Below are positions 9,069 through 16,576 of a stretch of DNA of 64,000 nucleotides, piece by piece. The stretch spans positions 1,302,001 through 1,366,000 of the forward strand of contig NZ_CP046606.1 in the NCBI RefSeq assembly GCF_030408355.1. Direction: 5' to 3'. How positions within the stretch are numbered: position 1 is the first letter of the stretch; the number at the start of each line of letters is the position of its first letter. Under the pieces are notes generated by a model. The model did not search any database. It worked only from the letters and a program-made list of their open reading frames with translations, and was not told the DNA's origin. The stretch is from Corynebacterium afermentans subsp. afermentans (GTDB lineage: Bacteria; Actinomycetota; Actinomycetes; Mycobacteriales; Mycobacteriaceae). Made by a program: the position numbers and the translations under genes.

Positions 9069-9895
9069 CTAGCCTTTCGCCTGTTTCCCCAGGTCAGACA
9101 CACGTTTACGCAGCTCAGCGACTTCCGGCCCTGCAGCGAGGACCGAGCGGGAAACGCTGGGGAAAACGAGGTGCCCCACCTCACCCGCAATCGCTTGGGC
9201 ATCGTCCATCGTCGCTCCTTGGGCACCCACGCCCGGCATCAGCACCGGCGCGTTCAGCTGGTCCAGCACCGGCGGGTTTTGCACAGTCGCGCCGACGACC
9301 ACACCGACGTGCCCAATGTATTCAGCATCGTCGCCACGGTTGTACTCCGCGCACTCATCCACCATCCGCTGCGCGAGCATCTTCCCGTCGATAGTGCCGG
9401 TCTGCAGCGCCACCGCCTCCGGGTTGGAATTGGCGGCCATGACAAACACGCCTTTGCCGTGCTGGGCCGCCAGCTCGATCGCCGGGTCGAGCGAGCCAAC
9501 ACCAAGGTACGGCGTCAAGGTCAGCGCGTCGGCCTCCAACGGAGAACCCGGCGCTAGCCAGGCCGCCGCGTAGCCCGCCATCGTGGACCCGATGTCGCCG
9601 CGTTTCGCATCGGCGATTACCAAGGTGCCGCTCTCACGCAGTTGCGCGAGCGTGTCCTCGAGCACCGCGTATCCGGCTGAGCCGAAGCGCTCGAAAAACG
9701 CCACCTGCGGCTTGACCACCGCGGCGTGGCCGGCGAATGCCTCCACACAGGTCTCGGAGAACGCCCGCAGACCCTCGACTGTGTCTTCAAGCCCCCACTG
9801 TGCAAGCAGCGCGGCGTGAGGGTCGATGCCCACGCACAGACGGCCATACTCCCGCCCGGCCTCAACGAGGCGCTCGCCGAAGCCCTGTGCCGTCA

Positions 9896-9896
<1 letters not shown>
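9069..9896 (-). CDS. pyrF: Orotidine-5'-phosphate decarboxylase
   Basis: Last step of UMP synthesis. The 275-aa protein is of the longer actinobacterial type 2 family. It shows CVGIDPHAALL near the N-terminus, VVKPQVAFFE, the catalytic block VIADAKRGDIGST (Asp-Lys pair) and VMAANSNPEA, and ends with the phosphate-binding PGVGAQGAT and FPSVSRSVL. Its ATG shares one base with the carB stop (TAATG), so it is coupled to carB and is the distal gene of the pyr operon. Confidence 0.95.
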
Positions 9897-13267
<3,371 letters not shown>

Positions 13268-13290
13268 GTGTGTATCTCCTGGTCTTTCTC

Positions 13291-13770
13291 TTAGGCTTCG
13301 TGCTTATCGACGGTGACCTGGCCCCGCACCGACTTTCCCTCGCGGGCGGCGTTTGCCAGGTGGCGGACAAGCTTGCGGGTGTCCACGCCCCACAAGCCGG
13401 TGACACCCTGCGCCGCAAGTTCTTCGGCCAGGGTGCGCTGGGCGTTGTGGTTGGAGGCAATGCGCGCGACGTCGCGCACGATGACGGCTGCGGCGGTGAT
13501 CTCGGTGCTGCCGGACGCGCCCTCGCCGGTCCAGCCGACGTTGCCCACCTGCGGGGAGGCGAAAACAAGGATCTGGCCTTGTCGATTGGCCTCGCACAGT
13601 TCGCGCTCGTAGCCGAACATGTCGGCGGTGAAGGCGACCTCGCCGGCGATCTCATCCGAGATGTTTGCTGCGGGCGTCGCCCCGAAAATGAAGCCGGGGA
13701 AGGCGGAGCCGTCGTCAAGCACGAGCGTCGCGCGCGTGCGCTGGGGTTGCTTGGTGGTGTTGTCAGACAT
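13291..13770 (-). CDS. carA: Carbamoyl-phosphate synthase small subunit, N-terminal domain only
   Basis: Only 159 aa, whereas CarA is normally about 360-400 aa. The whole protein corresponds to the CPSase small-chain N-domain: [38 protein letters not shown], and the end block [17 protein letters not shown] followed by about 20 residues to a TAA stop. The glutamine amidotransferase domain, with its Cys-His-Glu triad, is entirely absent. Only 23 bp separate the stop from carB, and these hold the carB ribosome binding site. The usual TGYQE-type signature after the first beta strands is also altered ([13 protein letters not shown]), so the remaining domain is divergent. Frame and position (between pyrC and carB) are clean. 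It could be a genuine short subunit or a deletion. Confidence 0.8.
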
Positions 13771-13773
13771 GGT

Positions 13774-15057
13774 TTACGCCTTCTTCGCGTCGTAGGTTTG
13801 GGTGCCGCGCAGCCAGGTGCCAACCACGCGGGCGGAAAATTCGATGTCTTCGTACGGGGTGTTGGATGCCTTGGACGCCATCTCATCGCCGTGGGCGGTC
13901 CACGGCGACTGCGGGTCCACCAGCACCAGGTTGGCCGGCTCACCGACGTTGATCGGTCGGCCCTGGTCTTCAAGTCGCAGGATCTCAGCCGGACGCTCGC
14001 TCATGACCTTGGCCACGAAGCGCCAATCGGCCTCGCCCGACTCCACGAAGATGCGGTGGACCACGGCCAAAGAGGTCTCCAGGCCGAGCATGCCGGGCTT
14101 GGCGTGCTCGAACTCCACGCACTTGTCCTCGGAGCCGTGCGGGGCGTGGTCGGTGGCGACCACGTCAACGGTGCCGTCGAGAAGCGCTTGCTTGAGCGCT
14201 TCGGCGTCGCGGGCCTCGCGCAACGGCGGGTTCACGCGGAACAGGCCGTCGTAGGTGGCGAGCTTCTCGTCGGTGAGCATGAGGTGGTGCGGGGTGACCT
14301 CGGCGGTGACGTCGATGCCCTGGTTCTTAGCAAAGCGCAGAAGCTCCACGGTGCCCTCGGTGGAGGCGTGGCACAGATGGTAGCGGCCGCCGTAGTCGCG
14401 GGTCATGATCGCGTCACGCGCCACAATGGACTCCTCCGCCACGCGCGGCCAACCGCGCAGGCCCAGACGTGCGGCCTGCTCGCCCTCGTGGGCGACGGAG
14501 CCCTCGGTCATGCGGTGGTCCTCGGCGTGCTGCGCGAGCACCACGTCGTGCGCCTTGGCGTACTCGATGGCGCGGCGCATCAGCTGCGGGTCGTTGACGC
14601 ACTTGCCGTCGTCGGAGAACATGCGCACGCCGCTGCGGGACATCAGCCCGATCTCGGTGAGCTGCTCACCCTTCAAACCCTGGGAAATGGAGCCCACCGG
14701 GTAGACGTCGCACTTGCCGTACTCCTGGCCCTTCGTCCATACCGCCTCAGCGAGGAACGGCTGGTCGATCACTGGGGAGGTGTTGGCCATGGTGAACACG
14801 GCGGTGAACCCGCCCTTGGCCGCGGCGTCAGAGCCGGTGGCGATCGTCTCAGTGTCCTCGCGGCCCGGCTCGCGCAAGTGCACGTGCATGTCCACCAGGC
14901 CCGGCAGCAGCACGTTGCCCCCGCAGTCCACGACCTCGTCCGCGTCGTCGAAGGGGTTCTCCCCGACCGCGTCGATCACGCCGTCGGCGACGTCGATGAG
15001 AATGTTGGTCACGTCCTCGCCGTACGGGCGGACGTTGTTCAAAGCGAACGTGGTCAC
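13774..15057 (-). CDS. pyrC: Dihydroorotase
   Basis: Cyclises carbamoyl aspartate to dihydroorotate. The 427-aa amidohydrolase is of the class I type, with the zinc motif [10 protein letters not shown] near residue 56, the conserved NTSPVID segment, QHAEDH, HLCHAS and the catalytic ATDHAPH. The GTG start at 15057 overlaps the pyrB stop by 4 bp (GTGA). The stop is 3 bp before the carA start. Confidence 0.96.
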
Positions 15058-16004
15058 TTGATGGCTCCTTCCTCAGCGCTGCCCCGCTCGTCAGAGCTAG
15101 CCAGCAGGGTAAACAGCACGGCCATGCGGGTGTAGACACCGTTGGAGACCTGGCCCAGCACCACGGCGTTGTCGCGGTCCGCGACGTCGAAGTTGATTTC
15201 CATGCCGCGCAACATCGGGCCCGGGTGCATGATCAGCGCCGAGTCCTTCATGCGGTTCGCGCGGTCCTTGCTCAGCCCGTACAGGGTGGCGTACTCGCGG
15301 TGCGACGGGAAGAAGCCGCCGTGCATGCGCTCAGCCTGCACGCGCAGCATCATCACCACGTCCGCCTGCTCGACCTCGGCGTCGAAGTCGTGTGAGACTC
15401 GCGCCGGCCAGTACTGCACGCCGGTGGGCAGCAGCGTCGGCGGGGCCACCAGCACAACCTCGGCACCGAGCGTGTGCAGCAGGTCCACGTTGGAGCGCGC
15501 CACGCGCGAGTGCAGGACGTCGCCAACGATGAGCACGGTCTTGCCCGCCACGTCGCCGATGTGCTGGCGCATGGTCACCGCGTCCAAAAGCGCCTGGGTG
15601 GGGTGCTGGTGCTGGCCGTCGCCAGCGTTAATGATGCTGGTTTCCGGCAGCCACTTACGCAGCAGCTGCGATGCGCCCGAAGCCGGGTGGCGCATGATGA
15701 TCGCGTCTGCGCCGACCGCCTCGAGGGTCGCGGCGGTGTCTTTGAGCGACTCGCCCTTCTTCACCGACGACGAGGACGCGGACAGGTTGATCACATCGGC
15801 GCTCATCCACTTCCCTGCCGTCTCAAAGGAGGATCTGGTGCGGGTGGAGTTTTCATAGAACAGCGTCATCACCGTGCGGCCACGCAGGGTGGGCAGCTTC
15901 TTAATCTCGCGGCCGTCCAAGGCTTCGCGGAAACGGTCCGCCTCGTCCATCAGGCCGACAATTTCCTCGCGGGACAGATCCGCGATGTCGATCAGGTGCT
16001 TCAT
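15054..16004 (-). CDS. pyrB: Aspartate carbamoyltransferase catalytic subunit
   Basis: Condenses carbamoyl phosphate with aspartate. The 316-aa protein has the carbamoyl-phosphate loop [13 protein letters not shown] near residue 50, [21 protein letters not shown] and HPGPMLRG. No regulatory subunit gene (pyrI) is present, as expected for this group. It overlaps pyrR and pyrC by 4 bp each, so the three genes are translationally coupled. Confidence 0.96.
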
Positions 16005-16576
16005 TTCGTGCCTCCCTCTGCAGGCCTGGACAGGGTGACCCGGTCCTCGGCATCGAGCGGCGTCAGCGACACGGTGACGTCCTCGTCCTTCGAGGTGGGG
16101 ATGTTCTTGCCCACGTAGTCCGCGCGGATGGGCAGTTCTCTGTGGCCGCGGTCCACCAGCACCGCCAGTTGGATGGCTGCGGGGCGGCCGATGTCGCGCA
16201 AGGAATCCAGCGCCGCGCGGATGGTGCGGCCGGAGTACAGCACGTCGTCGACCAGGATCACCACCGCCCCGTCAATGTCCACCGGGATGTTGGTGGGCCG
16301 CAGGGCGCGGTGGGGGCGGTTGCGCAAATCATCGCGGTACAGCGTCGTGTCCAGGCTGCCCACGGGGATCGCCACCCCGGAAAATTCTTCAACGGCTACT
16401 GCAATTCGCTGTGCCAGCGGCACTCCCCCGGACGGAATTCCCAACAGCAGAACCTGTGGGCTGGTCTCATCGTCCAACGCCGTTTTCTCAATAATCTGAT
16501 GCGCGATGCGTGCAACAGTGCGGCCGACGTCTTGAGCGTTCAGCAACTCGACGGTCGACCGTTCGTTCTCACTCAT
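16001..16576 (-). CDS. pyrR: PyrR bifunctional regulator / uracil phosphoribosyltransferase
   Basis: Binds pyr mRNA in response to UMP and also has uracil phosphoribosyltransferase activity. The 191-aa protein carries the PRPP-binding motif [20 protein letters not shown] near residues 105-124, and the early [13 protein letters not shown] loop. GGAGG lies about 5 nt before the ATG. It is first in the operon and its leader contains a GC-rich hairpin, consistent with autoregulation at the RNA level. Confidence 0.94.

Follow-up and report, generated by a model that had tools for sequence, protein, structure and literature searches.

A clade of Corynebacterium with a carbamoyl-phosphate synthase small subunit reduced to its N-terminal domain

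Bacterial carbamoyl-phosphate synthases (CPS II; Escherichia coli 1JDB and 1C30) combine a synthetase subunit, CarB, with a small subunit, CarA, in which an N-terminal small-chain domain is followed by a class I glutamine amidotransferase with catalytic Cys, His and Glu. A review names glutamine as the physiological nitrogen donor of the E. coli enzyme and extends this to all bacterial CPSases (PMC6245113). In a survey of carAB arrangements across 600 genomes, 1% were fused, 72% clustered and 27% remote, and the table records none without a glutaminase (PMC3376133 Table 1). Animal CPS1 (5DOT/5DOU) is a single chain that requires N-acetylglutamate and keeps a dead glutaminase domain, its Cys changed to Ser (PMC4655335). 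Ammonia has been proposed to enter CPS1 at a mouth between Glu82 and His142, and Cys648, Ala667 and Ala729 have been named as its ammonia-gate residues (PMC4655335). Two more distant systems also operate without a glutaminase. NadE, which belongs to a different enzyme family of ATP-dependent amidotransferases, has single-domain, ammonia-using forms in vivo (PMC3376133), and the carbamate-kinase-like enzyme of Pyrococcus makes carbamoyl phosphate on an amino-acid-kinase fold (PMC6022934). We searched the open-licence literature by title and start of abstract and found no paper describing a bacterial carbamoyl-phosphate synthase cut down to the CarA N-terminal domain. To our knowledge, no bacterial carbamoyl-phosphate synthase relies on free ammonia.

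We analyzed a 64,000-nucleotide stretch of the Corynebacterium afermentans subsp. afermentans genome (the window), in which the minus strand carries the gene order pyrR-pyrB-pyrC-carA-carB-pyrF. The features are as follows, in positions of the window.

16001 to 16576, minus strand: pyrR, upstream of pyrB (named by eye from sequence and context)
15054 to 16004, minus strand: pyrB, aspartate carbamoyltransferase, the carbamoyl phosphate consumer (named by eye from sequence and context)
13774 to 15057, minus strand: pyrC, dihydroorotase, upstream of carA (named in the original prediction and by eye)
13291 to 13770, minus strand: carA, 159 aa, the N-terminal CPSase small-chain domain alone, with no glutamine amidotransferase domain (profile searches)
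13276 to 13280, minus strand: AGGAG, probable carB ribosome binding site within the 23-nt carA-carB gap (motif found by eye)
9896 to 13267, minus strand: carB, full-length synthetase subunit, 1123 aa (profile searches)
9069 to 9896, minus strand: pyrF, downstream of carB (named by eye from sequence and context)

The original prediction held that this carA encodes only the N-terminal domain of the subunit, in a clean frame and ahead of a complete carB. Our searches agree on each point. Three bases separate the pyrC stop from carA, which runs for 159 codons from ATG to TAA; the carB ATG lies 23 nt beyond the stop, with AGGAG in between. PF00988 is the sole Pfam match of the protein (96.8 bits, with a cut-off of 27; profile positions 1-118 of 126 aligned to residues 16-140), and no other family, PF00117 included, matched at E <= 0.001. 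Against the full CarA model TIGR01368, the protein scores 94 bits, below the cut-off of 307, and covers positions 1-132 of 361. The reading frame ends before any C-terminal class I amidotransferase with its Cys, His and Glu. An AlphaFold model of the domain (CarA-N; pLDDT 84.0, pTM 0.79) has as its best PDB matches chains of E. coli CarA, at TMq 0.77-0.78, and human CPS1, at TMq 0.75-0.77. CarB scores 1322 bits against TIGR01369 (cut-off 1027) and contains PF02786, PF25596, PF02787 and PF02142, that is, two ATP-grasp halves, the oligomerisation domain and the MGS-like domain. We found no second PF00988 match, and so no complete second CarA, in the genome (one contig, 2,375,453 bases, 99.86% complete).

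These features place the locus close to the bacterial CarA-CarB enzymes, with which it shares CarB and its domains, the fold of the CarA N-terminal domain and the position of carA before carB seen in full-length relatives. It differs from them in the absent glutaminase half and in changes at CarB residues 262, 263, 266 and 269. The S1 domain of CPS1 is homologous to CarA-N, neither enzyme has a working glutaminase, and use of external ammonia would be expected here as in CPS1. However, the glutaminase domain retained in CPS1 is deleted here, and the single polypeptide with an S2-like domain is replaced by separate subunits. The locus resembles the Pyrococcus enzyme in having no glutaminase, but CarB is an ATP-grasp enzyme and not an amino-acid kinase.

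Comparing carA length among relatives revealed the same arrangement elsewhere in the genus. PF00988 was found in 240 of the 242 Corynebacterium genomes searched, and in 15 of the 242 it forms a stand-alone domain directly before carB, 146-167 aa long depending on the start chosen. The frame is intact and carB adjacent in 15 of 15, and in six of these species no gap is left between the carA stop and the carB start. The 15 assemblies range from 1 to about 90 contigs, with several in a single contig, and nine of the loci come from separate isolates, including C. haemomassiliense, C. glaucum, C. stercoris and C. riegelii. Among the other 227 genomes, 224 have PF00988 together with the catalytic-Cys motif, which was matched in 221 by the pattern G[IV]CFGNQ (a genome-wide match, its place inside CarA not confirmed one by one) and read as GICLGNQ in three (G129, G141 and G169); CarA frame lengths are known for the genus rows listed. 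Two genomes, G019 and G106, have no CarA or CarB match and therefore presumably require arginine and pyrimidines. The last, G226, is described below. One genome (G128:C2:1062488-1069831) has two equal-score PF00988 matches, separated by about 7 kb and lying in frames of 657 and 468 aa, but a single Cys-pattern match; this is either a duplicated carA or an assembly duplication.

We looked for truncated CarA beyond the genus and found no further case in 398 genomes drawn across the phylum, the C. afermentans genome included. In this sample, 16 genomes with best E values of about 1e-9 to 1e-6 and one with no match were counted as having no CarA, and 13 non-genus genomes with best E values of 2.5e-27 to 7.5e-58 were followed up. 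CarA is broken at contig ends in one of these (G333) and runs off the contig in another (G523); the remaining 11 carry the two halves in a single frame of 379-622 aa. A protein database search returned 68 short homologues, of which the four with an NCBI name are all Corynebacterium. A broader search for stand-alone N-terminal domains in other taxa discriminated little, since 7985 of 8000 scored candidates passed; among the 120 matches listed, the NCBI-named ones outside the clade are labelled 'partial'.

G226 has lost glutaminase function in a different manner. Its CarA (L106:4637-5785, plus strand) has a full length of 383 aa, with AFGFGAQ where GICFGNQ aligns and FDPT where HPES aligns. Protein P0070, one of three read among the 120 proteins of a separate listing, is 79% identical to it and is also full length without the Cys and the His-Glu pair, so that the two apparently represent a conserved pseudo-glutaminase. 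In these 383-391 aa proteins the glutaminase part is retained, whereas the truncated clade, a separate lineage, has deleted it; catalytic Cys and His-Glu are lost in all of them. Another of the three proteins read, P0114, lies near the Corynebacterium CarAs and has Gly for the Cys of GxCxGNQ with HPES intact, possibly a third loss or a database error. The C. afermentans genome also encodes, near 1.54 Mb (L162:9739-10368, minus strand), a HisH-like protein with VVGAAMD in place of the catalytic Cys motif (GICVGMQ in G173). HisF was not found by tblastn in the 20-kb stretch around this gene; in G173, HisA- and HisF-like genes (assigned by eye) stand beside HisH. By its sequence, this protein is a second degenerate glutaminase in the genome.

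Loss of the glutaminase is matched by changes in CarB. We compared CarB from the 15 truncated species and G226 with 56 rows having intact CarA, which represent 55 genomes (G240 was entered twice; G129 was dropped for its incomplete CarB of 489 aa). Of 645 positions that are invariant or near-invariant in the intact rows, 11 differ in every one of the 15 truncated species: 92, 168, 237, 262, 263, 266, 269, 321, 349, 351 and 352. Two clusters map to the window as follows.

12458 to 12484, minus strand: CarB codons 262-270 (E. coli CarB 258-266), with D262, R263, Q266 and R269 lost (alignment)
12212 to 12223, minus strand: CarB codons 349-352, with 349, 351 and 352 substituted throughout the 15 truncated species (alignment)

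D262, R263, Q266 and R269 are present in 56 of 56 intact rows, in none of the 15 truncated species and not in G226; the E. coli residues aligned there are D258, K259, Q262 and R265. Positions 349-352 read P/A/A/F where CarA is intact, with one exception at 349. In G226, 26 of the 645 sites are changed, and five of them (262, 263, 266, 269 and 351) are also lost in all 15 truncated species, an overlap with a hypergeometric probability of 2.8e-5 if near-invariant sites are assumed to be equally mutable. Leaving out each of the 56 intact rows in turn and treating it as G226 had been treated gave an overlap of 0 in 49 rows and of 3 at most, never at 262, 263, 266 or 269. This control is weak on numbers, because the rows average 2.4 changed sites, with a maximum of 11, compared to 26 in G226.

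The gate residues, in contrast, are kept. CPS1 Cys648, Ala667 and Ala729 align with positions 236, 255 and 318 of the window CarB, which are A, A and A in the truncated clade; the intact rows have C (38 rows) or A (18 rows) at the first position and A at the other two. In two lineages that lost glutaminase activity by different routes, the same CarB residues have therefore gone while the gate has stayed. Human CPS1 retains the Gln and Arg aligned with CarB 266 and 269, unlike the truncated clade. The R269 site corresponds by alignment to Arg265 of E. coli CarB, which Kim and Raushel 2004 reportedly placed in the tunnel wall. We infer that the 262-269 segment served the glutaminase domain or the closed tunnel leading from it.

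The truncation probably arose once. In a tree of 30 genomes (15 truncated, 15 others) built from pyrR, pyrB, pyrC, carB and pyrF with carA excluded, one branch splits the truncated species from the rest with a bootstrap of 100 (the Newick value; the label 48 in the re-rooted drawing was shifted by re-rooting). This topology suggests that the glutaminase domain was lost in the clade ancestor. We estimated omega for 18 truncated pairs, dropping one (G060/G061) that showed no change. In the remaining 17, carA-N omega is 0.12-0.31, with upper limits of 0.34-0.60 in the four pairs resampled by codon bootstrap. The corresponding values for carB are 0.02-0.08 within the clade and 0.02-0.14 in full-length pairs, and pyrB gives 0.02-0.11. 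The ratio of carA-N to carB omega is 2.4-11.6 in the clade (17 pairs) versus 0.9-1.8 for the same domain in full-length species (7 pairs), an approximate contrast given that dS is saturated in some full-length pairs and that pairs are not independent. Thirty-five CarA-N positions are invariant across nine diverse clade members. Thus carA-N is under purifying selection, yet it is also relaxed, because its omega exceeds that of carB far more than in full-length species.

The original prediction reasoned that such an enzyme must use free ammonia or a glutaminase encoded elsewhere, and with the glutaminase half gone we judge this to be right. From the sequences, we consider it probable that the enzyme consists of the CarA N-terminal domain and CarB and is supplied with nitrogen by free ammonia in the cell. 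E. coli CarB makes carbamoyl phosphate from ammonia, although at very high and probably unphysiological concentrations (PMC6245113), and variants with blocked or perforated tunnels remain active with external ammonia (PMC6245113, PMC4655335). CarA-N would stay docked on CarB, where it would either stabilize the active form or line an entry path for external ammonia at the interface of CarA and CarB, as has been suggested for human CPS1. On the assumption that the 1500-residue chain 6uel_A follows CPS1 numbering, Glu82 and His142 align with CarA-N residues 56 and 107. Residue 107 is Asn in nine of nine truncated proteins compared. Residue 56 is Glu in each of 14 full-length species compared, whereas 13 of the 15 truncated ones have Arg there, so any ammonia inlet would have been remodelled.

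The ammonia itself may come from a general pool fed by uptake, amino-acid catabolism and the housekeeping glutaminase GlsA. GlsA is present in all 15 truncated genomes and in 15 of 17 others tested (30 of 32), so deamidated glutamine can feed the pool without channelling. We rejected urease as a linked source of ammonia: it occurs in 2 of 15 truncated species versus 89 of 224 with intact CarA, a count that includes two weak or partial matches (G190 and G230). A more specific model goes further. The clade may have become a committed ammonia-type synthase by glutaminase deletion, with CarA-N as a dedicated inlet and activating subunit, and with the glutaminase-facing side of CarB freed from constraint; the G226 lineage would have reached the same function by in-place inactivation, in parallel with animal CPS1. 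We give this combined model an even chance of being correct.

Several other explanations would account for parts of these data. That the truncation reflects faulty sequencing or assembly, or a pseudogene that arose recently in a single strain, is next to impossible. We found no point in favor of this explanation, and it would have to account for one clade of 15 in 242 genomes with several single-contig assemblies, nine separate isolates and 68 short homologues in the protein database. The loss of about 700 bp from the assembly, against which the prediction had been hedged, is implausible because the same gap recurs in 15 assemblies. Given this sharing and the separate isolates, the truncated carA is a genuine feature and not an assembly artefact. 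We also regard it as very improbable that the clade CarB has ceased to make carbamoyl phosphate and that both subunits are kept for another reaction. The loss of the glutaminase and of CTP synthase and the raised rate of carA-N evolution would fit such a change; however, carB is constrained no less strongly in the clade than in full-length pairs, all domains are intact in the window CarB, and the same gene row contains pyrB, whose product depends on carbamoyl phosphate and whose omega is low. Alternatively, CarA-N could be a functionless, decaying remnant, with CarB alone making the little carbamoyl phosphate that is needed. The raised omega of carA-N relative to carB, the ability of E. coli CarB to use ammonia (PMC6245113), the missing CTP synthase, which suggests nucleoside salvage, and the joint absence of carA and carB from two genomes of the genus all speak for decay. 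Even so, we think this improbable: omega is clearly below 1 in the four pairs resampled, the 35 invariant positions persist over nine diverse members, and the frame and its adjacency to carB are preserved in 15 of 15, down to a stop that abuts the carB start in six.

The remaining explanation keeps the enzyme glutamine-dependent through a separate glutaminase that docks on CarA-N and CarB in trans, for which the remote glutaminase genes in 27% of surveyed carAB arrangements (PMC3376133 Table 1) offer a precedent. The original prediction had called for a genome search for a second CarA or a stand-alone class I amidotransferase. No second CarA was found, and the six PF00117 domains in the genome belong to GuaA, a PabAB-like protein, a TrpG-like protein, PurQ and two uncharacterised proteins, L004 and L005, that do not look dedicated to this task. 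Both retain Cys, His and Glu as judged by eye, and L005-kind matches are listed for 15 of 15 truncated genomes (the L004 and L005 kinds are distinguished by score, range on the profile and location rather than by alignment). Nevertheless, proteins of the L005 type with 56-58% identity also occur in G093 and G146, which have intact CarA; no L005 match was found in the stretches searched, each part of a genome, of G240 and G001. Matches of the L004 kind (E 1e-20 to 1e-22) are listed for just 7 of the 15 truncated genomes, and G095, the closest relative of the window in the set (CarA-N 97% identical), is not among them. We rejected L004 and L005 as dedicated replacements since these distributions do not fit, and free ammonia is therefore favored. 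GlsA, found in all 15 truncated genomes, is nearly as frequent in the others tested, and the CarB residues that track an intact CarA glutaminase are lost in the clade and again in G226. After the search of the PF00117 family, we accordingly consider docking in trans improbable as a whole; a dedicated glutaminase is unlikely, and a small chance is left for a shared class I amidotransferase that has taken on the task.

A search for CTP synthase (PF06418) in 32 Corynebacterium genomes bears on why loss of the glutaminase may have been tolerated. No match was found in 21 of them, including that of C. afermentans and other single-contig ones. The 21 comprise all 15 truncated species, G226, G019, G106, G066, G240 and G001; the other 11 have the enzyme. 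G066, G240 and G001 have an intact CarA, yet no CTP synthase was found in them. Cells without CTP synthase presumably take up cytidine or some other source of cytosine, and less would then be required of carbamoyl-phosphate synthase. Loss of the glutaminase was perhaps tolerated because these host-associated lineages salvage pyrimidines, with 15 of 15 lacking a recognisable CTP synthase, although the link between CTP synthase and truncated CarA is a correlation over few independent events.

The clade amounts to a natural experiment in which the glutaminase has been removed and the docking domain kept. It points to positions in CarB that would exist solely for ammonia derived from glutamine. 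CPS1 is an enzyme of human urea-cycle disease, and the side entrance for external ammonia proposed for it becomes testable in a small bacterial system. If the free-ammonia reading is correct, these bacteria would exemplify a return from channelled ammonia to the free form.
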